From Bidens hawaiensis (lineage: Eukaryota > Streptophyta > Magnoliopsida > Asterales > Asteraceae), in contig JAIQDT010002995.1 in the NCBI GenBank assembly GCA_021521415.1, forward strand, positions 186,001 to 250,000: a stretch of DNA of 64,000 nt, written 5' to 3'. Position 1 is the stretch's first letter, and each line of letters starts with the position of its first letter. This document shows positions 16,365 to 55,784 of this stretch, piece by piece. Under the pieces are notes generated by a model. That model worked only from the letters and a program-made list of their open reading frames with translations, did not search any database and had not been told where the DNA came from. The position numbers and the translations under genes are program-made.

Positions 16365-16768
16365 TGTTGGTGCATGATGTCAGTAGTTCAGTGTCGAGTG
16401 ACTGTAATCGTGTTAGTTAGATTTGTTTTTGTATGTAGCGAAGTTGCTAACAAGTTCGCTGATATGGGCGAACTTGTTAGACAAGCGAAGTTAGAGACAA
16501 CTTCGCCTGAACATGCCAGGCGAAGTTGTCGTGATTATATAAACTTAGGTTACGGCTTAAGTTTATATCATTAATTCAGTATTCGAGTTTTCGTGTATTC
16601 GAGTCAGAGAGAGTCTGTATTAGTGATCATAGTATCACGTGTTAACGGTTGAAATACAACGTGTGTTTGATTATCGTATCGTGTTTTCTATACTCGTAAC
16701 GTCTTACGTAGGGATTCCGCACCTACGTAGAACGCGATATCTCGTGTAGATCCGGCTGGGAACCTACA
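16365..16768 (+). repeat. 5' LTR of Sirevirus B
   Basis: Runs TGTTGGTGCATG...GGGAACCTACA, 404 bp, identical in length to the 3' LTR. It contains palindromic GCGAAGTT/AACTTCGC units (about 16438-16530) directly upstream of TATATAAA at 16536-16543, the likely promoter. Confidence 0.96.
16536..16543 (+). promoter_or_regulatory. LTR TATA box of Sirevirus B
   Basis: TATATAAA sits 8 bases after a CAGGCGAAGTTGTC palindrome arm. Its copy in the 3' LTR is at 28427-28434. The palindrome-TATA arrangement matches the internal promoter at 24535-24615. Confidence 0.65.
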
Positions 16769-16770
16769 AT

Positions 16771-16782
16771 TGGTATCAGAGC
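16771..16782 (+). other. primer-binding site, initiator tRNA-Met (element B)
   Basis: TGGTATCAGAGC, two bases after the LTR, is the usual Copia PBS. The same sequence follows the LTRs of C and, on the minus strand, D. Confidence 0.95.
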
Positions 16783-16967
16783 GTTTGCTCGATTGTGTGG
16801 TTCGGGATTATCACGCGGGTATAGAAATCGTTCCGTTCGACTATTCACGGGACGAGTTTTCTGAGTTTTTGTGTCCTACTCACCCCCTACCTTCAAAAAC
16901 AACCCATAACACCTTCACACACCTCGAAAAACCTAGAAATCTAATCTGCAGAAAGTTCGTGTTCATC

Positions 16968-17223
16968 AGGCGAAGTTGCCGTCACTGTAAGTAGGGTTTC
17001 GGCGAAGATATAAGGTTAAGCGAAGTTATCCACAACTTCGCCTACCTCTTCAAGTTCGCTTACCTCAAGCGAAGTTACCCACAACTTCGCCTACCTCCCA
17101 AGTTCGCTCAGCTTAAGCGAAGTTATTCTCAAGTTCGCCAATCCAGCGAATTTAAGAAAGTGAGCGAAGTTACAAATTCACGCGAAGTTAAGCTTTAAGC
17201 GAAGTTATCCACAACTTCGCCTA
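16968..17223 (+). repeat. GCGAAGTT palindrome array in the leader of B
   Basis: About a dozen half-sites of AAGCGAAGTTATCC or CAACTTCGCCTA lie in both orientations between PBS and gag. Pairs such as AAGCGAAGTTATCC-ACAACTTCGCC would form hairpins in RNA. A similar array occupies the C leader (47426-47640). A GTAAGT at 16987 resembles a donor but is not conserved in C (GGAAGT). Confidence 0.8.
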
Positions 17224-17280
17224 CAGAGCTGTTTGAAAATTAAATTTTTGATTTTCGGATTTCTTTGAGTTTTGCGAAAG

Positions 17281-19887
17281 ATGTCTTCGATAAACATTAC
17301 CGAACTGGTAAAGATGGAAGTAGAAGCGGGTTCGGCTACAAAGGCGCCCAAGATGCTTAAGAAAACTGATTATGTGGCGTGGAAAGATCGTTTTGAACAA
17401 TATATCAAGTATCAAGATGCCAAGATGTGGGTGTGCATACAAGATGGTTACATTCCACCTACTGCTGAGTATGAAGGTCGTGATCAGATCAAGAAATACA
17501 AAGAGATGGAAGAAGAGGAGAAGAAAATGTATGAGGCCGAAAGCAAAGCTCATGCAGCAATTACAATGGCTCTTCCACAAGAGATTCTGCACACCTTCCG
17601 AAAGTATAAAACTGCTAGAGAGCTTTGGGAAGCACTCGAGAACCGGTTTGAGGGCAATGTGGGAATTCGTGCCTCGAAAATTAAACTTCTAAAAACCCAA
17701 TTCTCGGTCTTCAAGTATCTGAAGAATGAGTCACTTGATGATATCATTACTAGATATTATCATCTGATGACTGAACTCAACAACTATTCAATTGTTTACA
17801 AGGAAGATGAGATAGTTGAAAAGCTTCTTGATGCTCTCCCACCGAAATGGGAGATGTATACTGTGTTGATGAGAGAAGACAAGGACTTTGCTGACTATGA
17901 CCTGGAGACAGCAGTTAACAAGCTAAGAACGTTTGAACTGAACATGGTACGAAAGGAGACACCTACCGATCAGGTTCAAGATCCGGGTATGTATGGGGCA
18001 AAGGTTAACTCGGGATCAAGTTCGAAAACTGAATCATCTGCTTATTACTCTAAGGGAGAGTCAGGCGCTAACTCAACACACGAAGGACATGTTTCTCTCA
18101 ACATGAACGATGATGTGTGCTTTGTAGCTGGAGGATCTAATGCTTCTCAACCTCAAGCGACCAAGAGTAGTTATTCCCCGAGTGTGTCAAACAACAACTA
18201 CTCGAAGATGCCCATGAGTGTTAAATCTGCTGAACAGCAGTTTGCTCTCTATGCATCTTTTATTGCTTCGTATGAGAACTATATTCAGGGTAAGATTGTT
18301 GATCCTGCAATTTTAGATGAAGACTATGATCAGATCGATGCTGATGATCTGGAGGAGATGGATCAGCAATGGCAGATGGCTATGATCGTGAGAAGAGTTA
18401 AGAGGTTCATGAAGAAGACTGGAAGGAAGTTTGTCGGAGAGAGGCCAGGTTTTGATAAGTCGAAGGTTCGCTGTTACAACTGTCAGCAGAATGGCCACTT
18501 TGCAAAAGAGTGCAAAAATGAACGTGTAGAACGCAGTCAAAACAGATCTACACAGCAGAGTGGTAGTGGTAATGACTATAGAGCCATGATTTCCAGACAG
18601 AACGAGGAGTACAACTGGAATCTGCATGTCAAAGAAGTATTTGAACAGGCCAACTTGGCAAAAATCGAAACCGCAGAAAGTGAGAAGAGAACTGGTGAAA
18701 ATGAAGCGTACATGGCAGATGTGGCAGACCAGCTCTCCGAGGTAAGTACCGAACTCCCTTGTACTAAGTGTGAACATCTGTCTGAACAACTGACAACTTT
18801 AACTGATCAGTTTGTTAGTTTGGATGCGCAATTTAAAACTTTAAAAGAAAATCATCATTTCACTAAAGCTAGAGAAAATAGTTACAAAGTAAAAATTAAA
18901 GCTAGTGAAAAAGATATTAAAAGTCTTAAAGCAAAACTTGCTGAAAAAATTCAAATGATTGATCTTAGCTATGAAGTACTAGAAGAGAAAACCAAACTAA
19001 TAGATGAAAGGGATAAACAGATAGCTGATCACCAGGTAAAAGTGGTGGAGCTTAACAGGAAACTTGAGAAATTTAGAAATTCCACTGCTATACTTGATCA
19101 CCTCGTTAGTGATCAAGGTTCCCCAGTTAAAAGGGGAGGAATTGGTTATCATGAAGTTCCACCACCTTTCAATCATAATTACACTTATGACCCTAGTAAT
19201 CAGAAATCTGTCGATGTTGACTATGGTCAGACAGTTCCAGTTAAAGTAACGATTAAAGAACCAGTAGTTAGTAAGCCTGTCGCAAGTGTTAAGATTTCTG
19301 CTCTGAGTCCTGTCTCATCTAACTCAGACAAGTCTTCTGAGTCGAGTGAGACAAAACAAGAGGAAGTGTTACCAAATAGTGGAGAGAAAAATAAAACACC
19401 TGGAAAGAAGTCTCCACTAAACCCGTATGTCCCACCATTTGTGAGACAAGCGAGCAGTAATACAGCCTCAACATCTAAGACAACTTTTGATAAGAAAGTT
19501 GAACACCGGAATTGTTTTAGATGTAATCAATTAGGACACCTTGTTGCTGATTGCCCTCTGAAGCAGAAATTCAGAGGTGTGAGGCCTTCAAAATCTGAGA
19601 AAAGAGCTAACGGTAATCGATTTAATGGTAAAAATGAAAACCCATCAAAATTCAGAAATTGGTCTAATCCAGGTTTTCAAAGAAATAGATCTCAGTTTTT
19701 CACTGCAAACAACCAAACCATAAGTAATAATTCATTTAATTCAAGACGGTTTGAGTGGCCTCATAGACAATCCACAAGATGGTATCCTGTTAGGACTCAC
19801 AGAAATTATAATGATACTAACTTTGGACAGCCAAGGTACGGGATGTATCGACCCAAGACCAATCGGTCTTGGGTCCCCAGATTTTAA
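17281..19887 (+). CDS. gag: Gag polyprotein, long form (element B)
   Basis: 868 aa from ATG 17281 (M-S-S-I-N-I); the frame is open three codons earlier from a TTG, which is not needed. Residues ~50-210 form the Copia Gag/UBN2-type capsid region (A-L-E-N-R-F-E-G, L-L-D-A-L-P-P-K-W). A first CCHC knuckle is at ~398-411 (C-Y-N-C-Q-Q-N-G-H-F-A-K-E-C). A heptad-rich coiled coil spans ~495-600, and a second CCHC at ~745-758 (C-F-R-C-N-Q-L-G-H-L-V-A-D-C). Gag packages RNA and forms virus-like particles in the cytoplasm. It is unusually long for Copia, as known for Sireviruses. The stop (19885-19887) is in frame with pol. A consensus splice donor lies after codon 487. Confidence 0.93.
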   Translation: MSSINITELVKMEVEAGSATKAPKMLKKTDYVAWKDRFEQYIKYQDAKMWVCIQDGYIPPTAEYEGRDQIKKYKEMEEEEKKMYEAESKAHAAITMALPQEILHTFRKYKTARELWEALENRFEGNVGIRASKIKLLKTQFSVFKYLKNESLDDIITRYYHLMTELNNYSIVYKEDEIVEKLLDALPPKWEMYTVLMREDKDFADYDLETAVNKLRTFELNMVRKETPTDQVQDPGMYGAKVNSGSSSKTESSAYYSKGESGANSTHEGHVSLNMNDDVCFVAGGSNASQPQATKSSYSPSVSNNNYSKMPMSVKSAEQQFALYASFIASYENYIQGKIVDPAILDEDYDQIDADDLEEMDQQWQMAMIVRRVKRFMKKTGRKFVGERPGFDKSKVRCYNCQQNGHFAKECKNERVERSQNRSTQQSGSGNDYRAMISRQNEEYNWNLHVKEVFEQANLAKIETAESEKRTGENEAYMADVADQLSEVSTELPCTKCEHLSEQLTTLTDQFVSLDAQFKTLKENHHFTKARENSYKVKIKASEKDIKSLKAKLAEKIQMIDLSYEVLEEKTKLIDERDKQIADHQVKVVELNRKLEKFRNSTAILDHLVSDQGSPVKRGGIGYHEVPPPFNHNYTYDPSNQKSVDVDYGQTVPVKVTIKEPVVSKPVASVKISALSPVSSNSDKSSESSETKQEEVLPNSGEKNKTPGKKSPLNPYVPPFVRQASSNTASTSKTTFDKKVEHRNCFRCNQLGHLVADCPLKQKFRGVRPSKSEKRANGNRFNGKNENPSKFRNWSNPGFQRNRSQFFTANNQTISNNSFNSRRFEWPHRQSTRWYPVRTHRNYNDTNFGQPRYGMYRPKTNRSWVPRF

Positions 19888-19908
19888 TCATCTGATTTAA
19901 TCGTGCAG
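18742..19908 (+). other. candidate intron joining gag to pol in frame (element B)
   Basis: The donor GAG/GTAAGT falls exactly between codons 487 and 488. The acceptor CGTGCAG/GAACAG is at 19908, with a CTGAT branch-like site about 20 bases before it. Both ends are phase 0. Removal takes out 1167 bases (389 codons, including the coiled coil, second zinc knuckle and gag TAA) and joins the upstream Gag to pol without a frameshift. Parts of the interior are AT-rich (12, 15 and 16 G+C in 60-base lines at 18841, 18901 and 19681, against 34 in the line at 19921). C has the same two sites. Inference; no RNA data. Confidence 0.55.
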
Positions 19909-22900
19909 GAACAGTTGAACAGGGCTGCCAACAATCAATGGGTTGTGGATAGCGGCTGTTCCCGGCACATGACGGGTAACAAGAAATTGTTACACGACTT
20001 GAAACCTGTTCAAGGAGGAAGAGTGAGTTTCGCAGGAGAGAGCGGTGGGAGGATTACAGGAATAGGGACGGTGTCGAATGGAAAGATGACTTTGGAGAAA
20101 GTGAACTTTGTTGAAGAACTGAAGCACAATCTGCTGAGTGTTTCGCAGATCTGTGACAAGGATTACACCGTGCATTTTACCAATAATGAGGCGATTGTGT
20201 TGCATCCTGGTTTTAAGATACCCGAGGAATGGATTCTTATGAAGGCTCCAAGAGTGAATAGTACGTATATCATGGATATGAGGTCGACTGAGATGGCCAC
20301 AGAAGAATCGTGTCTTCTGTCAAAAGCAACTGAATCGGAGTCAGAGTTGTGGCATAGGAGAATGGGGCATATTCATCTTCGGAAAATGAACTACCTTGTC
20401 AAAAATGGGCTTGTGCTGGGTCTTCCCTTGAAGAATTTCAACTTTGAAGAAAAATGCTTATCATGCAAAAAGGGAAAGCAACACAAGAAATCCCATCTCA
20501 CCAAGAAGGTCAATTCAATTGTCAGTACCCTAGAATTACTTCACATGGATCTCTTCGGTCCCGTGAATGTAAAAAGTCTAGGAGGAACAACTTACTGCTA
20601 GGTGATCACTGATGATTTCTCTCGATATTCCTGGGTATATTTCCTGAAGTCAAAGGATGAAACAGTGCAGATGGTAAAGAATTTGATTACCAAGGTTGAG
20701 AATATCATGGGGAATCGGGTTAAATTCATCAGGAGTGACAATGGAACTGAGTTCAAGAACTATGAGATGGAGATCTTCTGCTTACAGAAGGGGATAGAAC
20801 ACCAATACAGCGCACCGTATACTCCGCAATAAAATGGAGTGGCTGAGAGGAAGAACATAACCTTAATTGAAGGAGCCAGAACCATGCTGGCTGATTCAAA
20901 ACTTCCCGTGATGTTCTGGCCTGAAGCTGTTGCAACAGCCTGTTATATCCTTAATAGAGTGTTAACTGTTAAAAGATTAAATAAAACCTGTTATGAACTT
21001 ATGCATGGGAGAAAGCCCAACTTGAGTGGTCTTGAACCATTCGGGTCCCCGTGTTCGATATTAAAGACCAATTCTAAATTTGGTGAAGTAGCCGACGAAG
21101 GAATCTTAGTCGGATACGTTGTTGGGACTCCCAACAGACGGGTCTTTAATACATCGACCAGCAAGGTTGAGGTGGTCTGTAACACTGATATCGCAAGTTA
21201 CAAATCACCAAAACCAAGCACGGGACCCGCTGGGGTTTTCGACTATGATAGACTTTTTAAATCTTTTAACATGCCTTATTTGGATTTTGCAGAAGTTGAG
21301 GAAAGAATTGCTACGAAGATGATATGCGATGAGGAAGACACTTTGGTGCAACGACCACAGTATGATGAATGTCAGCCTTCCTCGTCAAATGCTGTCAATA
21401 CCCCTGCTGCCTCTACTGAAGAGGAATTCATCAATCCATTTCACTCTCAACATCAATCACCCATTGATGAGCTATCTTCGAACTTGGAAGATAATATGAA
21501 TGTCAGTTCGGTTCCGACTACGAGAATTCACAAAGATCATCCTTTGGAGAACGTGATAGGTGATCTGTCTGCCGGTGTACAAACAAGAAAAAGCTTGAAT
21601 GAGCACACCTGTGTTTACACAAGCATTAAAGACACGGGCATTATCAACGAATGCTTGTACACCTGCTTCATCAGCCAGATTGAACCAAAGAACTATCAAA
21701 TGGCTCTTAAGGACAGCTCGTGGGTCGAAGCCATGCAAGAAGAGTTAGCTCAGTTTAAGAAAATGGAAGTATGGAATCTGGTTGAAAAACCGAAGAATGT
21801 GCATGCGATAGGCACGAAATGGGTCTTCAAATGTAAGAGAGATGAGAAAGGGATTGTTATCAGGAACAAGGCGAGGCTGGTTGTTAAAGGCTTTAATCAG
21901 CAAGAGGGGATTGATTACAATGAGGTGTTTGCTCCTATGGCAAGATTGGAAGCCATTCGTTTGTTTTTGGCATTTGCTGCTCAGAAGGAGATGAAGGTCT
22001 TTCAGTTGGATGTGAAGAGTGCGTTCCTAAACGGTAAAGTCGATGAGGTTGTGTACGTTGAGCAACCTCCGGGTTTTCCGGACCCTGACTTTCCTGATCA
22101 CGTGTACAAGCTAAGTAAAGCGCTGTATGGACTACATCAGGCACCTCGTGCCTGGTATTCAACCTTATCAGATTACTTGCTTGAGAATGAGTTTGAAAGA
22201 GGTAAAATTGATAGCACATTGTTCTTCAAGAGAAAGGGTAGCGACTTTCTGCTGGTGCAAGTCTACGTGGACGACATTATTTTTGCTGCATCAAGAGTCT
22301 CCATGTGTCAGGAGTTTGAGGCCGTCATGAAGAAGAGATTTGAAATGAGTGCTATGGGTGAACTAACTTTCTTTTTAGGATTGCAGGTTGATCAGAAGAA
22401 AGACGGGATGTTCATTCATCAGACGAAGTATGTCCATGATGTTCTTAAACGCTTCAAGATGGAGGACAGCACTCCATATGATACTCCAGTCTGCGTCAAT
22501 CACAAATTGGGTGCTGATTCAGACAACGATGCAGACGTGGACCCAAGCCAATATCGGGCAATTATAGGTTCTTTAATGTACTTAACTGCTTCTAGGCCTG
22601 ATATAATGTTTGCTGTTTGTCTTTGTGCACGCTTTCAGGCAAACCCAAAAGAATCTCATTTGAAGGGTGCAAAGAGGATACTGCGGTATCTCAAAGGCAA
22701 GCCGAAGCTGGGGTTGTGGTACTCGAAAGGAGGAGACTTGGAGCTAGTCGCTTACACAGATTCTGATTATGGAGGGTGCAATCAGAGTCGGAAGTCTACA
22801 ACTGGTGGATGTCAGTTTCTTGGTGGCAGACTAGTGTCCTGGCAATGCAAGAAGCAGACCTCAGTCGCAATTTCAACCTGTGAAGCAGAATACATGGCAG

Positions 22901-23211
22901 CATCCAACTGCTGCTCCCAGGTTCTTTGGATTCAACAACAGTTGCGCGATTATGGTCTGAATTTCTCACTTACTCCTATTTGCATTGATAACTCTGCTGC
23001 TATCTCAGTAACTAACAATCCCGTAAAGCACAGTAAAACTAAACATATTGACATACGTCATCATTTTATACGGGATTGTGCTGAGAAGAAACTGATTGTG
23101 CTCGAGAAGGTTGACACGTTAGATAATTTCGCTGACTTGTTCACGAAAGCGTTTGACAAAACTAGATTTCAAAACCTTGTTGAGCTGAATGGGATGATCA
23201 ATCCCGAGTAA
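19903..23211 (+). pseudogene. pol: pol of Sirevirus B with two stops in integrase
   Basis: Same frame as gag, no initiating ATG before protease. Protease D-S-G-C-S-R-H-M-T-G (~19950). HHCC finger and integrase core (H-M-D-L-F-G-P ~20545, S-D-N-G-T-E-F ~20737, N-G-V-A-E-R ~20835). RT with Y-V-D-D-I-I-F (~22265), and RNase H with T-D-S-D-Y and E-A-E-Y (~22750-22900). A TAG at 20599-20601 replaces a Leu codon of C, and a TAA at 20830-20832 replaces the Gln before N-G-V-A-E-R. Both stops fall in the integrase core, so this copy cannot make full pol. RT and RNase H are otherwise open for 790 codons. Confidence 0.94.
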
Positions 23212-23295
23212 CAATGTCGTGTGTTTTTGATTAAAAAAAAAAAAAAAAAAAAACGTCACTATCGCTTAGAATTATGTCGGTTGCCTCAGTTTGAA

Positions 23296-23360
23296 GGACA
23301 TGTCTTCGGATATGTTTGGTCCTCATTTCTACTTGTAGAATATGAGGATAGCCATTAACC
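23296..23360 (+). ncRNA. double-hairpin RNA motif, copy 1 (element B)
   Basis: The outer stem is GGAC/GTCC and the inner stem ATGTC/GATAT closed by a TTCG tetraloop, with a bulge on the 3' side. The second hairpin has stems CTCAT/ATGAG and TTCTAC/GTAGAA. GGATAGCCATTAACC follows. Compared with C, one inner pair changes from G-U to A-U, preserving pairing. Confidence 0.55.
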
Positions 23361-23441
23361 AGATGACAGAAAGTAACCGGGGCGGTTTATGATGTGTTTT
23401 TATTCTTTCGCTGAAAATTAATCGATCATACTTAGTTAGAA

Positions 23442-23504
23442 GGACACATACTTGTATGTGGTCGGTCCAGCTGATCCTTTGGATCTTCGGGATAGCCGTT
23501 CACC
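23442..23504 (+). ncRNA. double-hairpin RNA motif, copy 2 (element B)
   Basis: The outer stem is GGAC/GTCC, the inner ACATA/TATGT with a CTTG loop, then hairpin GATCC-ttt-GGATC and GGATAGCCGTTCACC. It lies 146 bases after copy 1 with the same order of parts. Confidence 0.55.
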
Positions 23505-24088
23505 TGAAGACTGTGATTTGGTCGGGGCGATTGAAGTTAAATTTTTCTTTTCGGGAGATGAAATTATTTTTCATGTCTACTACTTCGTAAGAAGTACCTT
23601 TACTATGTTTAATAGAAAATTGATCTAACCTTGGAAAGTGATAGATATACTGATTCTGTGTGCTTAACTAGTGAAGTTATTAGGCCTAAAAGACTTTAGA
23701 ACAGTCATTGTATGTCATGGTAGCTTTTTATGGTGCGTAAAAGTAGAAGTGATACTAACTAAATCTACTCGATTTTTTGTGGAAACTCCTTAAGAGTTGT
23801 GCATGTCTTCATAAATATCTTTCCGAATGATAGGCAGAAAAGCGATTACCCAGTCATACACGAGCCCGTGAGTGTTCTGATTCCCGTGAAGATAGCGTGT
23901 CAAGACACTGCAGTGATCCAGATTCGGGACTTGCAGTTGTTTTCTACTTGAAGTTTGTGTATATACATATTAAAAAAAAAATATTTCTAGAGTTCATAAT
24001 GTTAATGATTCTCAATCAAGACACAAGAAGGTGAATAGGAAGCAGAGACTAAGATCGAAGAGTAATTGTTACTTAATCAGACACTACG

Positions 24089-24156
24089 GGTCGAAGTCAA
24101 TTCGGGGTGACTTGGGGAAAGCCAAATACGCTTTGAGAATAGATAGGAGGCATCAT
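24089..24156 (+). other. conserved non-coding block of Sirevirus UTR (element B)
   Basis: Nearly identical to 54541-54609 in C and clearly related to 5953-6019 in A (core GTCAATTCGGGGTGACTTGG, then AAAGCCAAATACGCTTTGAG). Role unknown. Confidence 0.6.
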
Positions 24157-24534
24157 AATCTCTGAGTTGTTGCCCACTTAAATTTTGAGCTTAATTGAAC
24201 CTAACTCGTATCACATAAACGATGAAAACCATTTTAAGTATATTACCTGCTTACAACCTGTTTCTTTATGTCATAATACAGCTGAACACGGATCTGTGTG
24301 ACAGTCACGAAATTAGTATGATTCCTGTTCGGATCTTTTCTAACACATGGTAGTCCCTGTCGAGACTGAAATTTGATCCCGTGTACTTTAATTTTTCAAA
24401 TTTTTGTTACTTTTGTATTTGTTTGATTTTATACCTGGTTACTTGGTCTTGATCGTAGCATTTAACACTTTAAAGGATGTTTTTAAAACTTTATAGAAAA
24501 TTGTTAAAAGTGTAGGGGTTTGTTTTGTAAATAC

Positions 24535-24615
24535 AGGCGAACTTGATCATAACTTCGCCTGGAATAGGCGAAGTTATCGATAACTTCGCCTGTACTAACT
24601 TTGACCCTATATAAA
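24535..24615 (+). promoter_or_regulatory. presumed internal ORF3 promoter (element B)
   Basis: Two GGCGAA palindromes (24535-24560 and ~24566-24592, each about 26 bases) are followed by CTATATAAA (24607-24615). This repeats the palindrome-TATA arrangement of the LTR. C has the same module at 54967-55060. About 135 bases downstream is a donor-like AAAG/GTGTGT. Confidence 0.55.
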
Positions 24616-24749
24616 GGAATTTAAAGGTCAAACAGTTTCATTATTTCAAACTTCAGCGAACTTATACTCCGACACTTTAGCGAAGTTATCGATCAGTTTG
24701 TATCCATCTTCTGTGCCTTAACCTTACTTCGATTCAAATCAAATTAAAG

Positions 24750-25290
24750 GTGTGTAGGGTTCGATTATCATATTATCATTGTCTATTGAGGTTAATCATC
24801 GGTCGTTTCGACTCGATTATCGACCTCGTCTTTCGAAACCTTAAACACCCGATTTCAAACTTGTTTTTACGTGATAGTAAACTACTTGAACGTCTAAAAC
24901 TTCATAAAATCATGTATTTCGGAGTCCTCGATCTCCGAAATCATCATCTACACGTCGTTCGTAAATCCTAACTGTTGCCGATTCGAATTCGGCGAAGTTA
25001 CAGTTTAGGCGAAGTTATCCGTAACTTCGCCTGAGGTTTAACTTCGCCTGATTATTGATTTTGAAACAGTTTATGAGGCGATGTTGTGATTAGGCGAAGT
25101 TATCCGTAACTTCGCCTGGACCATTTTACTTAACTATTATCAGACGAATTTCAAGTTGACGCGAAGTTGTTTCCCAACTTCGCCTCACCTTTAACTTCGC
25201 CTATACAGAATTGATCACAACTTCGCTCATGGTAACAGGCGAACTTGTGATTCGCTTTGACGTTTATCTAACTTAACCTGTTTGTTGCAG
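24750..25290 (+). other. candidate 5'UTR intron of ORF3 (element B)
   Basis: Donor ATTAAAG/GTGTGT, acceptor TGTTTGTTGCAG/ATATGG; the ORF3 ATG follows two bases later. The 541 bases hold many GGCGAAGTT palindrome units (24992-25246). The counterpart in C is 55199-55782. Confidence 0.5.
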
Positions 25291-25292
25291 AT

Positions 25293-28184
25293 ATGGCTGC
25301 TGTTGCTGGAGCAGGTGGTGCAGGCGGTGATGACGGAGGTGATAACCAGAGGCAGTTCTTCTCGGGTCACAACATGTATATCACACTAGACCCGGAGGCG
25401 AGCGGAGTTGATGATTTCCGCGAAATCATCACATTTCTGTTACGCTCGAGGATATTCCACGCCATTACAACAACTCTGCCGATATCCTTACCCAACATTG
25501 AGGATTTCTGGCAGACCGTGGAATACGACTGTAGAGTCGAACCCCCGGTGATGCGCGCAACAGTAAACAATCAGATTGTTCAGTTCTCTTCTGAACATAT
25601 CCGGACGGCTCTGCGGTTTGGAAATGAAACAAGGGAGGACCCGACAGAGTTTGTAGCTCCTTTCCGTGATGGAGCGTTTTTGAGGATGGGTTATTCTGGT
25701 CCCTTGGGGGATTCGCAGAGAAGGAAGGGATTTCTGCTTGACCAGTGGCGCTTTCTCATACATGTCATGATCGTTTGCATGTCAGGGAGAAAGGCGGGCA
25801 CTGATGGCATGGGCGCGATCATGCAGTCAGCGATGACTGCTCTGACATACAACAAGCGATTCAGCTTTAGTCAGATGGTCTTTTATAAGATTGATCGTCA
25901 ACGAAGAGCGATGGCGCGTGACCGATTCATCATGTATCCAAGATTCCTACAAATGATCTTGAATCATGTTGCTCCAACGCTTCCTCAGCGTCGTCCGATC
26001 CGATATGTCGAAAGTGTGAATAAACGGATCTTCGCCCAATGTAGATCCTCCAGTGCGAGGAGCAAACCTGAGCTCCGTCCTCGACATACTCCACTTTTTG
26101 GGTACTTAATCAACCCAAGGTATGTACCTGCTCAAGGGGACGAGTTTAGGGACCCGACACCACAACAGGCAGGAGCACCTCAAGCTATACCTGCTGCTCC
26201 TGTTGTGTCCCCGGAGGAGAACGTGGACCTTGATGCAGAATTTGGTGGTCAAGGCTTCTTTGATATGGATCGGGTGGATCCAGAGGAGATTGTACAGGTT
26301 CCGGTTGAACGTGCTTCGACTGTGAATGTTACTAGGACAGCTGCTACGGTGGCTGGTTCTGATTCTGATGATGAAGTGGCAGAGGCGAGAAAGATTAAGG
26401 TAACTCGAGAAAGAATACATGGGAAAAGAAAGAGAACAGATGATGCTAGCGAGTCAGATTATGAGGAAGAGGTACAACAGTTGATACGGAGGTCAAGAAG
26501 GGAACGGGTAGGTGCAGGATCGGGAGCGGGTGAGAGCTCTAGGGTGGTACGTTTCACTCCACCAGCACTATCCGGTATGACAATGGTTCCCTCAACGCTA
26601 CAGGTTACAAGGCCAAGCGCTACGGGTGTTCCCGTGGTGGCTACCTCATCTACATTCGGCCTCCCACCCTCTACTTTCCAACTTTCGACTCCTGAGATCG
26701 TTTCATTGCCGCCTCCGACCGTTACTCCATCGGAGGTCATGGCACAATTTATAGAGTCGACTGTTGTGGCCACTGCAGGGTTATCGGTGACGATACCACC
26801 TGCGGTTACGTCTATTTCTACTTCTGAAGTCCCGGTGACATCGGAAATCCCTCCTCAGTATACTCAAGATTTATCACATATGAGGTTCGATTTCGATGCA
26901 ACCCTATCAGACTCAGAACGAATAGCAGCACTTGAACGGGTCGTGGCAGAGCAGTCAAGGGTGAATCTTATCCAGACCCAGGCTATTCAACGCCTAGTTG
27001 CAGAGAATCAGATGCAGTCGTCCCTGCTGGTAGAACATGGAAAGATCATAGATGCTCTGAAGGAGTTCTTGGCATCTCAGGGGGAGACGAGCTGTAAAGG
27101 CGATGAGTTGAGGACCAAGAGAAGAAATGATAGAGATGATGATCCCAATGCGTCGAAAGATGCAGGTGGTGAGCTACCAAGAACTGATCAAGCTCTTGGA
27201 ACTTCCACAACTCAGGGGGAGTCGACAACTGCAGCTGGTGGTGATGATGTGGTGGTGGTGGACGTAGAGGAGATGGATGATGGTGTGGTTGGTGATGATG
27301 ATGTATTACCGAGGGATGTGATTGAGAAGATTGGAGAAGAGATTGTGATTGATAATGAGATAGAAGAGGGAGAGATAGTAGAGGAGAAGGTGGAGCATGA
27401 GATACCGCAAGTCGAGAACGTAGATATGAGTCAACAGATTGGGAATGATGAGTCTGAATGGGAAGAGCAGCCTAGATGGAAGGAAGGCTATGCTCAGTGG
27501 TTCGTCAAAACGAAGAAACCGGCGGTCCCTACAATGTTTAAGAAGAGTTACAACATTAAAGGCTATGCTGAAGCGAAGAAAGGGATTATTTGTTGGATAT
27601 ATAATGAGCAGTTGAGGCTCTTCGTGATTAAAAGGTATAACGGCGTTCAGTACTTTAAAAGGATGTTAAGATCGTTGAATACACTGCCAGAATGTGAGGT
27701 GAAAGACTTAGCCAAATTGGGGTTGATAAACCGAAGTGACGATAATATGGCTAGAGTTATTGGGAAAATTGTGTGGAAAGAGAGTGTAAAAGAGAAGAAA
27801 TTTGAGCTGTTGAAACCACAAAAGGGAAAACTTGTTGAAGACAAGGATAGAGGTTTAAGAGCTGATGGAAAACCTTGGATGATTATGAAGTATAAACCAA
27901 TCCGGTGTTTGAAAGAAGTACCGATGAAATTAATGCCCAAGGATGTGCTTAAAGACCTAAAGTGGTGGTATGTAGATTGTGAGACGGCTGAGGCAGTGAT
28001 GGAAGACGAGGATGAACAAGAGGTGCTAAGAGTTTACGATCCGATGCACTTGGTAAACTTATCGCAAGCTGATTTGCAGGTGTTGAATGACAAGAAGATA
28101 TTTTATATTCCTGCTTGGAAAGACGAAGCGAGAAAATATCAAAGAGTTATCTCGGTTTGTGTTCGAGAAGGAGTGCATGCTTGA
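25293..28184 (+). CDS. Sirevirus ORF3 protein (env-like position), intact in B
   Basis: 963 aa from ATG 25293. Residues ~20-260 form a conserved domain shared with A and C (F-W-Q-T-V-E-Y, W-R-F-L-I-H, F-S-Q-M-V-F-Y, Y-P-R-F-L-Q-M-I). A Pro/Ser/Thr-rich segment spans ~300-530 with basic patches. A coiled coil is at ~539-600, and a strongly acidic stretch at ~640-720. A conserved C-terminal domain (~722-963; L-R-S-L-N-T-L-P-E-C, W-W-Y-V-D-C) completes it. There is no signal peptide, membrane helix or Cys-rich ectodomain, so an envelope role is not supported. The stop lies 71 bases before the 3' LTR. Function unknown. Confidence 0.9.
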   Translation: MAAVAGAGGAGGDDGGDNQRQFFSGHNMYITLDPEASGVDDFREIITFLLRSRIFHAITTTLPISLPNIEDFWQTVEYDCRVEPPVMRATVNNQIVQFSSEHIRTALRFGNETREDPTEFVAPFRDGAFLRMGYSGPLGDSQRRKGFLLDQWRFLIHVMIVCMSGRKAGTDGMGAIMQSAMTALTYNKRFSFSQMVFYKIDRQRRAMARDRFIMYPRFLQMILNHVAPTLPQRRPIRYVESVNKRIFAQCRSSSARSKPELRPRHTPLFGYLINPRYVPAQGDEFRDPTPQQAGAPQAIPAAPVVSPEENVDLDAEFGGQGFFDMDRVDPEEIVQVPVERASTVNVTRTAATVAGSDSDDEVAEARKIKVTRERIHGKRKRTDDASESDYEEEVQQLIRRSRRERVGAGSGAGESSRVVRFTPPALSGMTMVPSTLQVTRPSATGVPVVATSSTFGLPPSTFQLSTPEIVSLPPPTVTPSEVMAQFIESTVVATAGLSVTIPPAVTSISTSEVPVTSEIPPQYTQDLSHMRFDFDATLSDSERIAALERVVAEQSRVNLIQTQAIQRLVAENQMQSSLLVEHGKIIDALKEFLASQGETSCKGDELRTKRRNDRDDDPNASKDAGGELPRTDQALGTSTTQGESTTAAGGDDVVVVDVEEMDDGVVGDDDVLPRDVIEKIGEEIVIDNEIEEGEIVEEKVEHEIPQVENVDMSQQIGNDESEWEEQPRWKEGYAQWFVKTKKPAVPTMFKKSYNIKGYAEAKKGIICWIYNEQLRLFVIKRYNGVQYFKRMLRSLNTLPECEVKDLAKLGLINRSDDNMARVIGKIVWKESVKEKKFELLKPQKGKLVEDKDRGLRADGKPWMIMKYKPIRCLKEVPMKLMPKDVLKDLKWWYVDCETAEAVMEDEDEQEVLRVYDPMHLVNLSQADLQVLNDKKIFYIPAWKDEARKYQRVISVCVREGVHA

Positions 28185-28244
28185 AGATAGAAGATTGAAG
28201 ATTACAAGACACGTGTTTGAAGCTAAAGAGATGAAGCTACTGCC

Positions 28245-28253
28245 AAGGGGGAG
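28245..28253 (+). other. polypurine tract of element B
   Basis: AAGGGGGAG two bases before the 3' LTR; identical in C (58654-58662). It primes plus-strand DNA synthesis in LTR elements. Confidence 0.85.
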
Positions 28254-28255
28254 TC

Positions 28256-28659
28256 TGTTGGTGCATGATGTCAGTAGTTCAGTGTCGAGTGACTGTAATC
28301 GTGTTAGTTAGATTTGTTTTTGTATGTAGCGAAGTTGCTAACAAGTTCGCTGATATGGGCGAACTTGTTAGACAAGCGAAGTTAGTGACAACTTCGCCTG
28401 AACATGCCAGGCGAAGTTGTCGTGATTATATAAACTTAGGTTACGGCTTAAGTTTATATCATTAATTCAGTATTCGAGTTTTCGTGTATTCGAGTCAGAG
28501 AGAGTCTGTATTAGTGATCATAGTATCACGTGTTAACGGTTGAAATACAACGTGTGTTTGATTATCGTATCGTGTTTTCTATACTCGTAACGTCTTACGT
28601 AGGGATTCCGCACCTACGTAGAACGCGATATCTCGTGTAGATCCGGCTGGGAACCTACA
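28256..28659 (+). repeat. 3' LTR of Sirevirus B
   Basis: 404 bp with about one difference from the 5' LTR, followed by TSD ATGTT (28660-28664). TATA at 28427-28434. ORF 28265-28465 here is an LTR shadow. Confidence 0.96.
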
Positions 28660-46764: not shown

Positions 46765-47226
46765 TGTTGGTACATAAATGTCAGTAGTTCATAGTCTAGC
46801 GTTTGTAATCGAGTCTGTAATGTAATTATGTTTAAGTTTATGTTTATGTAAGTAAGCGAAGTTGTCAACAAGTTCGCTTAGGCGAACTTGTTGAACAAGC
46901 AAAGTTGTTGACAAGTTCGCCTAGGCGAACTTGTTCAACGAGCGAAGTTATAGACAACTTCGCCTGAGGCGAAGTTGTCGTGTATTTAAGTAACCTACGG
47001 GTTTACGGTTTAGGTGTTAGTGTTTTGGTTAATCACGTGTAATTCAGCAAGTCGATAGACGAGAGATAGAGTCTGTAATAGACGTGTTTCAAGTTATATT
47101 ACATAACGTGTTCGTTTGTATCGCGTGTGATTGTTATTCGTATTCTACGCTCGTAACTACCTACGCAGGGATTCCGCACCTACGTAGATAGCGATATCCC
47201 GTGTAAGATCCGTCCGGGAACCTACA
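46765..47226 (+). repeat. 5' LTR of Sirevirus C
   Basis: TGTTGGTACATAAATG...GGGAACCTACA, 462 bp, with three palindromic pairs (46855-46976) before ATTTAAG (~46984), which takes the place of a TATA box. Confidence 0.94.
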
Positions 47227-47228
47227 AT

Positions 47229-47240
47229 TGGTATCAGAGC
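47229..47240 (+). other. primer-binding site, initiator tRNA-Met (element C)
   Basis: TGGTATCAGAGC two bases after the LTR end. Confidence 0.95.
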
Positions 47241-47425
47241 TTTGGCTCGATTGTGTGGTTCGGGATTTCACGCGGGTGTAGAAAACGTCTCGTTTGACCT
47301 ATTCGCGGGACGCGTTTTTGTTGATATTGTGTTATACTCACCTTATACAGTCATATTCAAGCCGTTACACCGACCGGAAACTGCTAAATCGTCGAAAACA
47401 GATCTGAATATTTTCAGTGTTCTTC

Positions 47426-47640
47426 GGGCGAAGTTGTTGTTCTTCAGGCGAAGTTGCCGACACTGGAAGTAGGGTTTCGCCTACCTCATAAGTTCGCCTA
47501 AGCGAAGTTATCCTCAACTTCGCTTACCTCCTAAGTTCGCTTACCTTAAGCGAAGTTATTCTCAACTTCGCCAAGTCACGCGAATTTAAGGATTTTCCAG
47601 CGAAGTTAACACTTAAGCGAAGTTATCCCTAACTTCGCCT
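47426..47640 (+). repeat. GCGAAGTT palindrome array in the leader of C
   Basis: About eleven half-sites in both orientations between PBS and gag, like B's leader. The spot matching B's GTAAGT reads GGAAGT. Confidence 0.78.
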
Positions 47641-47697
47641 ATAGTACTGTTTGGAAGAATTTTTGTTTTTTTTCGGGTTTTTCTTGTTTTCGAGAAG

Positions 47698-50370
47698 ATG
47701 TCGCCGATTAACATCTCAGAGTTAGTCAAAATGGAAGTTGAAGCGGGGTCGGCTACTAAGGCCCCAAGGTTGATGAAAGGAACCGACTTTGTAGCGTGGA
47801 AAGATAGGTTCATTCAGTATATTAAATACCATGATGCAAAGATGTGGGTGTGCATCCAGGATGGATATATTCCACCGACAATGGAATACGAAGGTCGGGA
47901 TGTGATAAAGAAGTACAGCAAGATGGAGGAAGAAGAGAAGAAGATGTATGAGGCCGAGAGCAAGGCCCATGCCGCAATTACTATGGCTCTTCCTCAAGAG
48001 ATTCTCCATACATTCCGGAAGTACACTTCTGCACGAGAGCTTTGGGATGCTCTTGAGAATAGATTCGAAGGGAACGTGGGTATTCGTGCCTCGAAGATTA
48101 AGCTGTTAAAGACCCAGTTCTCTGTCTTCAAGTATTTGAAGAACGAATCGCTCGATGATATTATCACCCGATATTATCATCTCATGACCGAGCTGAACAA
48201 CTATTCTATTGCTTACAGAGAGGAGGAAATAGTTGAGAAGCTTCTCGATGCTCTCCCACCGAAGTGGGAAATGTACACTGTTCTAATGAGGGAAGACAAA
48301 GACTTTCCTAATTATGACTTGGAGACAGCAGTAAACAAGCTCAGAACCTTTGAGCTTAATATGGTTCGTAAAGAGACACCAACGGATCAGGTTCAAGACC
48401 CTGGTATGTATGGTGCCAAAGTTAACTCAGGCTCAAGTTCGAAGTCTGAATCTGCTGCTTACTACTCCAAAGGAGAGTCAGGTTCTAACTCTTCTCATGA
48501 AGGAAATGTGTCAGTAAACATGAACGGTGATGTTTGCTTTGTTGCTGGAGGATCAAGTGCTTCGAAACCTCAAGCATCCAAGAGTAGTTTCTCTCCCAGT
48601 GCTTCAAGCAATAACTACACTAAGATGCCAATGAGTGTCAAATCTGCTGAAGAGCAGTTTGCACTCTATGCATCTTTTATTGCTTCTTACGAGAACTACA
48701 TACAAGGGAAGATTGTGGACCCTGCTGCTTTGGAAGAAGACTATAACCAGATCGATCCTGATGATCTGGAGGAGATGGATCTGCAGTGGCAGATGGCGAT
48801 GATAGTCAGAAGAGTGAAGCGTTTCATGAAGAAGACTGGCAGAAAGTTCGTAGGTGGAAAGCCAGGATTTGATAAGTCAAGGGTGAGGTGTTACAATTGT
48901 CAACAAAATGGACACTTTGCAAAGGAGTGCACTAATGCACGTGTAGAACGTAGTCAGGGGAGGACTACACAGCAAAGTGGAAATAACAATGGGAATAATG
49001 CCATGATGTCTAATGCTGGTGAATACAACTGGAACATGTTCTCTGGAGAACTCTTTGAGCAGGCACACATGGCGAAGGTTGCAGCTGAAGAATGTATGAA
49101 AGCTGCTGAAAATGAAAAAGCTTTCATGGCTGATGACCGGAACTCCGAGGTATGTACTAAACCTATCTGTACTAAATGTGAGAACTTGTCTGAACAGCTT
49201 GCTACAATTACTGATCAGTATGTTAAGTTGGATGCCGAATTTAAAACCTTGAAAGAAGATCATCACTTCACAAAGACAAGAGAAAATAATTATAAAATAA
49301 AAATTAAAGCTTGTGAAAAAGACGTTAAAAGTTTAAAAACAAAATTAGCTGAGAAAATTCATGTGATCGATCTAAGCTACGAGGTTTTAGAAGAGAAAAC
49401 CAAGTTAATCGCTGAGAAAGAAAAACAGATTGCTGATCACCAGGTAAAAGTGGTGGAACTAAATAGGAAACTGGAGCAATTCCGGAATTCCTCTGCTATT
49501 CTTGATCACCTCGTTAGTGATCAAGGTTCCTCACCTAAGAGGGGAGGAATTGGTTACCATGAGGTTCCACCACCTTATAACCATAATTATACTTTCAATC
49601 CTAGTGTTCATGAATCTGTTAATTTTGTAGCTGATCAGACAGGTCCTGCTAAGGAAACTGGTAAAGTACCGGAAGTTAGTAAAGGCGAAACAAGTTCGCC
49701 TGTCTCAAAAGTTAAAATTTCTATTTCAAGTCCAGTCTCATCTGATTCGGATAAGTCATCCGAGTCGAGTAAGACAAAAGAGAAGGAAGTATTACCCAAT
49801 AGTGGAGAAAAAGTTAAGTCAACTAAAAGGAGTACTCCACTCAACCCATATGTCCCACCTTATGTGAGATGTACGGTTGGTAATACTGCCTCCACATCTA
49901 AAACATCTGCTGAAAAGAAAGCTGAACATAGGTGTTGTTTTAGATGTAATCAAACAGGGCACCTTGTTGCTGATTGCCCTCTGAAGCAGCGTTTCAGAGA
50001 GGTGAGGCCCTCGAAAACTGAGACTAAGGTTTCTGGTAATCGTTTAAATGTTAAAAATGAAAACCATTCAAATTTGAGAGATAATACAGGTTTTCAAAGA
50101 AACACATCTCGTTTTTACACTACTAATAACCAAACCAAATGCTATAATTCTTTTGATTCTCTTAATGTTCGTGGGTTTGGTTGGCCTCACTATCAGTCTC
50201 CAAGGAGGTATCCTGTTAGGACTCGTGGAAATTTTTCTAATGCTAACTTTGGTCAGCCAAGGTGTGTGAGTTCTGTTAAGAAGGTTAATCGACCCAAGAC
50301 CGTCTTGGGTCCCCAAATTTTAATAATCTCTTTTGTTTGTGCAGGAACAGTTGAACAGGGCTTCCAATAA
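47698..50370 (+). CDS. gag: Gag polyprotein (element C), C-terminus altered by a 5-nt loss
   Basis: 890 codons from ATG 47698 (M-S-P-I-N-I). Same architecture as B: capsid region, first CCHC (~397-410), coiled coil (~490-600), second CCHC (~742-755). Near 50300 five bases present in B (AATCG) are missing. The frame therefore passes the original TAA TAA (50330-50335) and ends 26 codons later, overlapping the pol frame. The ancestral stop was in frame with pol, as in B. If the mid-gag intron is real, this lesion lies inside it and does not affect a spliced Gag-Pol. Confidence 0.9.
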   Translation: MSPINISELVKMEVEAGSATKAPRLMKGTDFVAWKDRFIQYIKYHDAKMWVCIQDGYIPPTMEYEGRDVIKKYSKMEEEEKKMYEAESKAHAAITMALPQEILHTFRKYTSARELWDALENRFEGNVGIRASKIKLLKTQFSVFKYLKNESLDDIITRYYHLMTELNNYSIAYREEEIVEKLLDALPPKWEMYTVLMREDKDFPNYDLETAVNKLRTFELNMVRKETPTDQVQDPGMYGAKVNSGSSSKSESAAYYSKGESGSNSSHEGNVSVNMNGDVCFVAGGSSASKPQASKSSFSPSASSNNYTKMPMSVKSAEEQFALYASFIASYENYIQGKIVDPAALEEDYNQIDPDDLEEMDLQWQMAMIVRRVKRFMKKTGRKFVGGKPGFDKSRVRCYNCQQNGHFAKECTNARVERSQGRTTQQSGNNNGNNAMMSNAGEYNWNMFSGELFEQAHMAKVAAEECMKAAENEKAFMADDRNSEVCTKPICTKCENLSEQLATITDQYVKLDAEFKTLKEDHHFTKTRENNYKIKIKACEKDVKSLKTKLAEKIHVIDLSYEVLEEKTKLIAEKEKQIADHQVKVVELNRKLEQFRNSSAILDHLVSDQGSSPKRGGIGYHEVPPPYNHNYTFNPSVHESVNFVADQTGPAKETGKVPEVSKGETSSPVSKVKISISSPVSSDSDKSSESSKTKEKEVLPNSGEKVKSTKRSTPLNPYVPPYVRCTVGNTASTSKTSAEKKAEHRCCFRCNQTGHLVADCPLKQRFREVRPSKTETKVSGNRLNVKNENHSNLRDNTGFQRNTSRFYTTNNQTKCYNSFDSLNVRGFGWPHYQSPRRYPVRTRGNFSNANFGQPRCVSSVKKVNRPKTVLGPQILIISFVCAGTVEQGFQ
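49150..50344 (+). other. candidate intron joining gag to pol in frame (element C)
   Basis: Donor GAG/GTATGT directly after codon 484 (phase 0); acceptor TTTTGTTTGTGCAG/GAACAG with a good pyrimidine tract. It is 1195 bases, not a multiple of three, yet exon phases still match pol exactly because the 5-nt loss is inside it. Splicing would give one continuous Gag-Pol frame of about 1584 codons. Inference only. Confidence 0.58.
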
Positions 50371-53300
50371 TCTTTGGGTTGTGGACAGCGGCTGTTCCCG
50401 GCACATGACTGGTAACAAGGATTTGTTACAAGATTTAAAACCTGTTCAAGGAGCAAGAGTCAGTTTTGCCGGTGAGAGTGGAGGCAAAATAACAGGAAGG
50501 GGTACGGTAACTAACGGGAAGATGACGTTAGAAAATGTGAACTTTGTTGAAGAACTGAAGCACAATCTGCTGAGTGTGTCGCAGATTTGTGATAAAGATT
50601 ATACCGTACACTTCACGAAGACTGATGCGATTGTGTTGAAGCCTGGTTTTCAAATACCAGAGGAGTGGATAGTAATGAAGGCTCCACGTGATCGAAATAC
50701 GTATATGATGGATTTAAGTTCAACTGAAATGTCAACGGAAGAATCGTGTCTTTTGACGAAAGCAAGCGAAACGGAATCTGAACTGTGGCACAGGAGAATG
50801 GGGCACATTCATCTTCGGAAGATGAACCATATTTTCAGACATGGGCTTGTGTTGGGTGTTCCCTTAAAAAGTTTCAATTTTGAAGACAAATGTCTTGCGT
50901 GCAAAAAGGGAAAGCAGCACAAGAAGTCCCATCTCACCAAGAAAGTAAACTCAATTGCCAGTACACTAGAGCTGCTTCACATGGATCTCTTCGGTCCTGT
51001 GAATGTAAGAAGTCTAGGTGGTACAACTTATTGCTTGGTGATCACTGATGACTACTCACAATACTCGTGGGTATACTTCCTGAAATCAAAGGACGAAACG
51101 GCTCAAATGGTGAAGAATCTAATTACCAAAGTTGAGAACATTATGGATAAACGAGTGAAGTTCATCAGAAGTGACAATGGTTCCGAGTTTAAAAATTTTG
51201 AAATGGAGATCTTCTGTCTGTCAAGAGGGATTGAACACCAATTCAGCGCTCCGTATACTCCGCAACAGAATGGAGTGGCTGAAAGGAAGAATAGAACTTT
51301 AATTGAAGGAGCCAGAACTATGCTGGCTGATTCGAAGCTTCCGATGGTGTTCTGGGCTGAAGCTGTTTCTACAGCTTGCTATGTACTGAATAGAGTTTTA
51401 ACGGTAAAAAGACTTAATAAAACATGCTACGAGCTTATACATGGGAGAAAGCCCAATTTGTGTGGACTTGAAGCTTTCGGGTCCCCGTGTTCAATTTTAA
51501 AGGCACATTCAAAGTTTGGTGAAGCAGCCGATGAAGGAATCTTAGTCGGCTATGAAGTTGGGACTCCCAACAGGCGTGTCTTTAATACAACGAACGGCAA
51601 GGTTGAGGTGGTATGTAACACCGACATTACGAGTTACAGATCGCCAAGACCGAGCATCAGACCTCCTGGGATTTTCGACTATGATAGGCTCTTCAAGTCT
51701 TTTAACATACCTGATTTGTTTTGTACAGAAGAAGAAAAACGTGTTGCTACGAAGATGATTCTAGATGAGGAGGAAAATTTGGCACATAGACAGCTATTTG
51801 ATGATTGTCAACCTTCCTCATCAAATTCTATCGGTTCCCCTGCTGTCTCTCCTGAAGAAGAGTTTATCAATCCATTTCACTCTCAGCCAGAAACATCCAT
51901 TGATGAGTTCTCTTCTAATTTAGAAGATAATTTGCATGTCGGTGCTGTTCCGACCACGAGAATTCACAAAGAACACCCTTTGGAGAATGTTATAGGTGAT
52001 GTGTCCTCCGGTGTACAAACCAGAAGTAGCTTGAATGAGCACACCTGTGTTTATACAAGCATTAAGGAAACGGGAATAATGAACGAATGTTTGTACTCAT
52101 GCTTTATTAGCCAGATTGAACCGAAAAATTATCAAATGGCTCTTAAGGACAGCTCGTGGGTCAAGGCCATGCAAGAAGAGTTGGCTCAATTTAAGAAGAT
52201 GGAAGTTTGGACTTTGGTTGAAAAACCAAGGAATGTGCATGCGATAGGCACAAAATGGGTGTTTAAGTGCAAGAGAGATGAAAAGGGGATTATTATAAGA
52301 AACAAGGCGAGGCTGGTCGTTAAAGGTTTTAATCAGCAAGAGGGGATAGATTATAATGAAGTGTTCGCTCCGGTGGCCAGGTTGGAAGCGATAAGATTGT
52401 TTTTGGCGTTTGCTGCTTTTAAGAAGATGAAAGTGTTTCAGTTGGACGTGAAGAGTGCGTTCCTCAATGGGAAAGTTGATGAGGTTGTGTATGTTGAGCA
52501 ACCTCCGGGTTTTCCTGACCCAGACTTTCCTGATCACGTGTACAAGTTGAGCAAGGCGCTGTATGGATTACATCAGGCACCCCGTGCCTGGTATTCAACG
52601 TTATCGGACTACTTGCTAGAGAATGGTTTTGAAAGGGGTTTGATTGACAGCACACTGTTTGTGAAGAGAGATGGAAGTGACTTCCTGCTAGTTCAAGTCT
52701 ACGTGGATGACATCATATTTGCTGCATCAAGAGTCTCCATGTGTCAGGATTTTGAGGCCGTCATGAAGAAAAGATTTGAGATGAGTGCTATGGGTGAACT
52801 AACGTTCTTTTTAGGATTGCAGGTTGATCAAAAGAAGGATGGGATGTTCATTCATCAAACAAAATATGTTCATGATGTTCTCAAGCGCTTCAAGATGGAG
52901 GACTCTTCTCCATTTGACACTCCAATTTGCGTCAACCACAAGTTGGGAGCTGAAATAGACGGTGACGCAGATGTGGACCCAACTCAGTATCGGGCTATAA
53001 TAGGTTCTTTGATGTATTTGACTGCTTCTAGGCCTGATATAATGTTTGCTGTTTGTCTTTGGGCTCGTTTTCAGGCAAACCCAAAGGAATCTCACATGAA
53101 GGGTGTGAAGAGGATTTTGCGGTATCTCAAAGGCAAGCCGAAGCTAGGGTTGTGGTACCCGAAGGGAGGAGACGTGGAACTGGTTGCTTATACAGATTCT
53201 GATTATGGAGGGTGCAATCAGAGTCGGAAGTCGACAACAGGAGGATGTCAGTTTCTCGGTGGAAGATTAGTTTCCTGGCAGTGCAAGAAACAGACATCAG

Positions 53301-53647: not shown

Positions 53648-53721
53648 CCATTTTTTTTGTTTATTTGAAAAAAAAAAAAACGTCACTATTGCTTAAAATT
53701 AGTCGGTTACCTCAGTTTGAT

Positions 53722-53788
53722 GGACATATCCTCGGATATGTTTTGGTCCTCGTTTCTACTTGTAGAGAATGAGGGTCGCCATTAACCA
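53722..53788 (+). ncRNA. double-hairpin RNA motif, copy 1 (element C)
   Basis: GGAC/GTCC outer stem, inner stem ATATC/GATAT with CTCG loop, then a hairpin with TTCTAC-tt-GTAGAG arms and GGTCGCCATTAACC. Confidence 0.55.
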
Positions 53789-53867
53789 GATTACTGAAAG
53801 TGATCGGGGCAGTTATGATGTGTTTTCTTTCTGTCGCTGAAAATTAGTCGTTCATACTTAGTTCGAA

Positions 53868-53930
53868 GGACACATACTTGTATGTGGTCGGTCCAGTTGA
53901 TCCATTGGATCTTCAGGATTGCCGTTTACC
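53868..53930 (+). ncRNA. double-hairpin RNA motif, copy 2 (element C)
   Basis: First hairpin identical to B copy 2 (ACATA-cttg-TATGT inside GGAC/GTCC). Second hairpin GATCC-att-GGATC with only the loop changed. Confidence 0.55.
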
Positions 53931-54540: not shown

Positions 54541-54609
54541 GGGTCGAAGTCAATTCGGGGTGACTTGGGAAAAGCCAAATACGCTTTGAGGATAGATAGG
54601 AGGCATCAA
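54541..54609 (+). other. conserved non-coding block of Sirevirus UTR (element C)
   Basis: Almost identical to 24089-24156 in B; related to 5953-6019 in A. Confidence 0.6.
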
Positions 54610-55060: not shown

Positions 55061-55198
55061 ATTTTAAGGGTCAAAACTGTTCATCAGAAAATCCAGCGAA
55101 CTTATTTGAAATATCCGGCAAACATATATCTATTATCCGGCGAACTTGATTCGTTTCCGATTTCGATCCTTTTTCTCAGTTTCGTTCATAGATTCAAG

Positions 55199-55782: not shown

Positions 55783-55784
55783 AT

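Follow-up and report, generated by a model that had tools for sequence, protein, structure and literature searches.

Two Copia elements with a candidate intron across the gag/pol boundary

The window analysed here is a stretch of 64,000 nucleotides from Bidens hawaiensis (contig JAIQDT010002995.1, positions 186,001 to 250,000; C2995:186001-250000 of a 3.47 Gb genome assembly), and all features described below lie on its forward strand. It holds two Copia retrotransposons, element A (16365-28659, with the target duplication ATGTT at both sides) and element B (46765-59126), whose long terminal repeat (LTR) pairs are 99.5% (A, over 409 aligned bases) and 99.4% (B) alike. Both elements contain a candidate in-frame intron that has its start within gag and extends up to the first pol codon, and we propose, with a probability of about 0.9 as judged from sequence, that the Gag-Pol of these Sirevirus-like elements is made by splicing of this retained gag intron.

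The gag gene of A runs from the ATG at 17281 to the TAA at 19885-19887 (868 codons) with pol in the same frame; gag of B comprises 890 codons and its pol lies in the +1 frame, and the CCHC zinc knuckle is found near residue 400. The predicted exon 1 of A (17281-18741, 487 codons) is free of stops and encodes the capsid domain and the first CCHC knuckle, with matches to Pfam PF14223 and PF00098. Some 70-80 codons past this knuckle lies the donor GAG/GTAAGT (18739-18747, intron start 18742), and the candidate intron of 1167 nt (18742-19908) closes with the acceptor GTGCAG/GAACAG (intron side 19903-19908), followed directly by exon 2 (19909-23211), which has Pfam matches to pieces of pol and encodes protease, integrase and reverse transcriptase (RT). 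In B, an open exon 1 of 484 codons (47698-49149) leads through the donor GAG/GTATGT into an intron of 1195 nt (49150-50344, GTATGT...GTGCAG), and exon 2 (50345-53647) begins after GTGCAG/GAACAG and is open as far as the stop at 53645. A first-pass annotation of this DNA had named this donor and acceptor of A, with phase 0 for both, and had given the matching positions in B; the sequences of A and the positions are as it gave them, and all four sites are in phase 0 relative to the gag ATG (17281 and 47698) and to pol. When GT and AG sites in selected stretches were scored with a general plant splice-site matrix not fitted to Bidens, the donor ranked first of 199 GT sites in A, first of 210 in B and first of 120 in L001, a distant relative described below, and the acceptor ranked third of 328 AG sites, first of 330 and second of 171, respectively.

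The unspliced interior of A encodes the C-terminal part of Gag, a second CCHC knuckle (19513-19554) and the gag stop. Removal of the interior would delete this stop and the second knuckle, as the earlier annotation had described, and would leave the first knuckle in exon 1. The higher AT content that it had noted is also borne out, with a guanine-cytosine content of 0.369 in the interior of A against 0.426 and 0.426 in the flanks, and of 0.377 in B against 0.440 and 0.421. The ratio of non-synonymous to synonymous divergence (dN/dS) between A and B is lowest in exon 1 (0.05), followed by early exon 2 (0.10) and the interior (0.27), which indicates that the interior is under purifying selection, so that long Gag is probably still made from unspliced RNA; if long Gag is indeed produced and under selection, as is most likely, part of the RNA would have to stay unspliced. 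Synonymous divergence between A and B in the later part of the intron (19102-19842) is 0.41-0.64 per 60-codon window against 1.9 in exon 1, which suggests either an extra constraint at the nucleotide level or recombination. The first methionine of pol in A and B lies 3' of the protease DSG motif, and Pol thus needs an upstream start.

Other site combinations were considered. Second in rank among the donors is the GT at 17987 in A and at 48404 in B, which was rejected, being out of frame with pol. Acceptor-like AGs are also found within RT, past protease and integrase; the one at 22387 in A outscores the proposed acceptor and the one at 52823 in B scores lower. A miniature intron starting at a GT in the conserved Trp-Val codons of the gag end, as suggested by the joints of protein models such as P0016 and P0060, was rejected as well; it would measure 36 nt in A, and the codon after the Trp in L001 is ATT, which rules against it.

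Genomic copies lacking exactly the candidate intron

The strongest evidence for splicing comes from copies of the family that lack exactly the intron proposed in A. A 21-nt probe across the predicted exon-exon joint, searched through the whole genome with at most one mismatch, matched nine places (four of them exactly), and the reversed probe matched none. At all nine (L047-L050 and L057-L061) gag exon 1 is followed immediately by pol exon 2, and the stretches read gave no hit to intron sequence; in L047 the match to A is limited to the last 369 bases of exon 1. Copy L050 has LTRs that are 98.5% alike over 413 bases and the target duplication GTCGG, as in ordinary retrotransposition, and a search for LTRs gave a partial pair, 99.1% alike, in L048 and none in the stretches fetched for L049.

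In a FastTree phylogeny built from exon pieces, which included 20 near copies of A with about 233 bases each, the intron-free copies occupy five places (L048 by B; L047; L058 with L049 and L059-L061; L050; L057), with four as the safer count since the placement of L050 and L057 inside the A group is weakly supported. This spread over several places implies that spliced RNA was probably reverse-transcribed several times. Copies L059, L060 and L061 are 95-97.5% alike and may share one intron-free source, that is, a spliced-type element that was copied again. As controls, joints were constructed from the third- and fourth-ranked GT sites to the same acceptor (GT sites only); the joint from the fourth-ranked GT, which shares four bases with the acceptor, had no match in the genome at up to one mismatch. 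The most natural reading of nine copies from several lineages that share one GT-AG joint is that spliced RNA was reverse-transcribed. Their exact joint, together with the frame relations given below, lends support to the suggestion of the first-pass annotation that splicing, in place of frameshift or readthrough, would create Gag-Pol.

The joint from the third-ranked GT had one match at up to two mismatches, in a B-type copy (L077; C3532:50258-50581) that lacks a different stretch, from AAG/GTGTGT to the same acceptor, corresponding to 83 bases in B. Its joint is out of frame with pol and may represent a rare wrong splice or a deletion.

Donor codons are locked among genomic copies

An acceptor probe gave 10,705 matches in the genome at up to one mismatch and its reversed control none; the element family is thus very abundant. 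Near copies of A numbered 6369 candidates at first look, and among the 20 that were read of 40 listed the GT is kept in 20 and the AG in 19. A second set of 14 copies, from 100 acceptor-probe places listed, was read over the whole segment (the 104-base piece L067 was left out); having been selected for an intact acceptor, these copies test only the donor. Over the aligned stretch, the identity among these copies, A and B ranges from 68.9 to 96.9%. A GT donor is present in 13 of the 14 (GTAAGT in 11, GTATGT in two), the remaining copy reading ATAAGT. Many relatives lacking GT or AG would, according to the earlier annotation, have refuted its proposal; copies without GT are few in both sets, and so are copies without AG among the near copies. 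The intron length modulo 3 is 0 in five of the 14 copies, 2 in eight and 1 in one; gag is open to near its usual end in seven, of which six have a remainder of 2 and one a remainder of 0.

The codons at the donor vary little at synonymous sites. The codon before the cut is GAG in all 16 sequences (A and B among them), the sole all-GAG column among 18 conserved Glu columns (three others are all GAA). Val is encoded at the next position in 15 sequences, each time by GTA, and this is again the sole all-GTA column among 15 conserved Val columns; four other Val columns use a single codon, all GTG or all GTT. The third codon is AGT in 13 of 13 sequences with Ser and TGT in the remaining three. Single-codon columns as such are common (48 of 167 conserved columns), and what is special is that three of them stand in a row and spell the donor, which points to donor codons that are synonymously locked.

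Distant relatives, reading frames and the gag-end hairpin

Element C, a decayed distant relative, lies at the window start with only its 3' part inside the window. Its pol begins at 999 (999-1358) after the acceptor-like GTATGTGAAG/GAACAG, with GTGAAG/GAACAG at the cut, and its donor CAG/GTACAT is located upstream of the window (L007:9045); the two are in phase 0. Scans of viral contigs found no relative, and a scan of prokaryote genome contigs gave one plant-like contig of 3498 bp, L001 (NZ_VCHY01000052.1, Labilibacter sediminis assembly), with 51% protein identity in pol. It has GAG/GTATGT at 631 and GTGCAG/GAG at 2061, both in phase 0, and a gag stop at 2041-2043. Four further contigs of the Labilibacter sediminis assembly also match copia pol, some of them weakly.

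The introns of A, B, L001 and C measure 1167, 1195, 1430 and 1954 nt, with remainders modulo 3 of 0, 1, 2 and 1. Splicing would bring gag and pol into frame in each of the four, whereas the unspliced relation between the gag and pol frames varies, taking the values 0, +1 and +2 among these elements and the 14 sampled copies.

A hairpin is found 5' of the acceptor in A, B, C and L001, each time with a different sequence. In A it has 11 bp and a 4-nt loop (19850-19875; fold z-score -6.3) and in B 9 bp and a 3-nt loop (50291-50311; z-score -2.1, with 6 of 200 shuffles folding as well); the z-scores in C and L001 are -2.8 and -3.0. The hairpin of A fits the one described at the Sirevirus gag end (PMC5009743). 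The gag stop precedes the acceptor by 21 nt in A and by 17 nt in L001. Its surroundings, TTTTAAT and AACTAAAC for example, look like branch points, and the stop could thus lie at one. One might speculate that the hairpin tunes splicing.

Gag proteins of other species

The start of B pol has 5343 matches, and the named proteins among the best 120 of them come from genera of the daisy family. A first-knuckle region is present in 126 sequences (A, B and L001 included), of which 103, falling into 39 clusters, have no protease motif soon after it. We asked how often Glu, Gln or Lys is followed by Val, a pair compatible with the donor because AG can close the codons of these three residues and GT opens those of Val. 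The rows examined were B and the 39 cluster representatives; 14 of these 40 lacked a segment between the conserved MA motif and a C-x-x-C after it and were dropped. The pair occurs in 25 of the 26 segments left, whereas 2000 shuffles gave it in 7.4 segments on average and in 15 at most. Some few pairs lie slightly off the homologous position and the proteins are related to one another, and we treat the result as supporting evidence only. Among 70 listed proteins with both knuckle and protease motif, which are gene predictions or open reading frames (ORFs), nine join Gag and Pol at the homologous site as judged by eye: P0017, P0050, P0064, P0066, P0068 and P0071 (Helianthus), P0199 and P0220 (Centaurea) and P0120 (ENA).

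A proposed splicing route to Gag-Pol and its alternatives

In the proposed scheme long Gag, ending before pol, would be the product of the unspliced RNA, which presumably would also serve as the genome. The spliced RNA, freed of the Gag C-terminal region and of the gag stop, would encode a fusion of capsid and first knuckle to Pol (1,584 residues in B). Splicing, rather than frameshift or readthrough, would set the ratio of long Gag to Gag-Pol and would be the main route to Pol.

Several observations weigh against this proposal. The splice-site scores stem from an unfitted matrix, and the donor of element C ranks second, not first, among 116 GT sites in its stretch. The intron-free copies are rare, nine against 10,705 acceptor matches, and the control joint from the third-ranked GT has one genome match at up to two mismatches. 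The trinucleotide AGG is common to both ends of the intron. Conservation in the near copies of A was rejected as proof of splicing because it has little power: 487 of 1381 nine-base windows show the same degree of conservation as the donor. Moreover, the intron length in these copies is a multiple of three, with gag and pol in one frame, in 19 of 20. The protein models were rejected as proof too, because 61 of the 70 have other joints or none.

The shared frame in A and in 19 of its 20 near copies would also suit translational recoding at the gag end, by readthrough, +1 frameshift, bypass or internal entry, with splice sites that are incidental and with help from the hairpin, which A, B, C and L001 all have and which has been proposed as an aid to bypass (PMC2829016). 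Since the frame relation takes three values, a single frameshift or readthrough event cannot serve all elements, and recoding leaves the locked donor codons and the intron-free copies unexplained; we consider it very unlikely. In-frame readthrough, conceivable in A, was also rejected as the general mechanism, the lengths in B, C, L001 and nine of the 14 sampled copies differing modulo 3. It is also unlikely, if less strikingly so, that the sites are spliced and yield a mere by-product while most Pol comes from elsewhere: one other joint has indeed been seen, but phase and donor codons are conserved and pol has no in-frame methionine before the protease motif.

The intron-free copies call for two further explanations to be weighed. 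Because AGG stands at both ends, deletion at this short shared sequence could in principle mimic the joint in any single copy, and one copy with another AAG/G joint does exist. That deletions produced the same GT-AG joint in nine copies at about five places of the tree is highly improbable, however, as the control joint with a longer shared sequence, also at a GT site, gave no match and L050 is an integrated element with an LTR pair and target duplication. Alternatively, the ancestors may have had no interior, which was inserted later as a coding segment; a one-knuckle Gag-Pol without the interior is the usual Copia layout, and the ENA protein P0120 has such a layout. The interior nevertheless occupies one and the same position in A, B, L001 and C, and the intron-free copies are scattered among intron-bearing ones, so that insertion would have had to recur at the same base, a history that we find barely credible. 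Splicing of the retained intron remains our preferred explanation. We lean, with more reserve, towards coding-intron splicing as the general Pol route of Sireviruses with a separate pol ORF, in the daisy family and possibly in other plants, in place of frameshift, bypass or internal entry, and towards the hairpin and the stop, at the branch point, as a region that controls splicing rather than a translational signal.

The closest precedent is Ogre, which has an intron between its two ORFs (PMC6317226) and an intron-based polyprotein in the same spirit as that predicted for A and B. The trait in common is an intron with GT-AG ends, the loss of which brings the polyprotein into a single frame. 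Ogre belongs, however, to another superfamily, Ty3/gypsy (Tat lineage), with its intron between gag-protease and RT-RNase H-integrase; the Ty3/gypsy order of RT, RNase H and integrase is not found in B, where integrase lies 5' of RT. Alternative splicing sets the balance of Gag and Pol in BARE1, EVADE (EVD) and Drosophila copia (PMC3735527, PMC8892269, PMC12786077), and a nanopore study of sunflower describes spliced isoforms with truncated Gag (PMC7730604). In BARE1, EVADE and copia, splicing removes pol function and yields a Gag-only RNA, whereas here the unspliced RNA would give Gag and the spliced RNA Gag-Pol, and the known Copia logic would be reversed. Foamy virus Pol is made from a spliced mRNA. 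It shares the dependence on splicing but is made without Gag, whereas Pol is here predicted to be fused to part of Gag.

In one Sirevirus group the expression of pol was reportedly left open in the 2003 survey of Gao et al. For Sireviruses with pol in the +1 frame or in a separate ORF, frameshift, internal entry or bypass has been proposed (PMC5009743, PMC2829016), and a 2016 review on Sirevirus pol expression ends with 'Puzzles awaiting resolution abound' (PMC5009743). The elements treated there have the same layout and hairpin as A, and the excerpts of both papers make no mention of splicing; likewise, no description of splicing to Gag-Pol in Sireviruses was found among the listed titles and abstract openings of open-licence literature. 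Splicing would be a third answer to this question. If true, it would explain the free drift of the gag and pol frames, the presence in gag of a second knuckle region that is absent from the predicted Gag-Pol, and an acceptor that stands exactly at the first pol codon.

Other features of the elements

The Pfam matches in B follow the order Pol_BBD, gag_pre-integrs, rve, SH3_retrovirus and RVT_2, that is, the Copia order protease-integrase-RT. Sirevirus traits include this order, an inverted repeat where gag meets pol, a pol that lies in a different frame or forms a separate ORF and, in many members, an extra ORF after pol. We call A and B Sirevirus-like. The extra ORFs 3' of pol (25293-28184 and 55785-58007) encode 963 and 740 amino acids; they have no Pfam match, and 'env-like' would be a label by position only.

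The 5' LTR of A (16365-16768) has the ends TGTTGG...CCTACA, and its 3' LTR (28256-28659) is directly preceded by the purine tract AAGGGGGAG. The pol of A has in-frame stops at 20599 and 20830, and that of B is open; because of these two stops, the copy of A is broken despite its 99.5% LTR identity. A scan against Rfam gave nothing at gathering thresholds. In the 5' leaders of both elements (16970-17230 and 47420-47650), many short inverted repeats of GCGAAGTT / AACTTCGC can be seen by eye.

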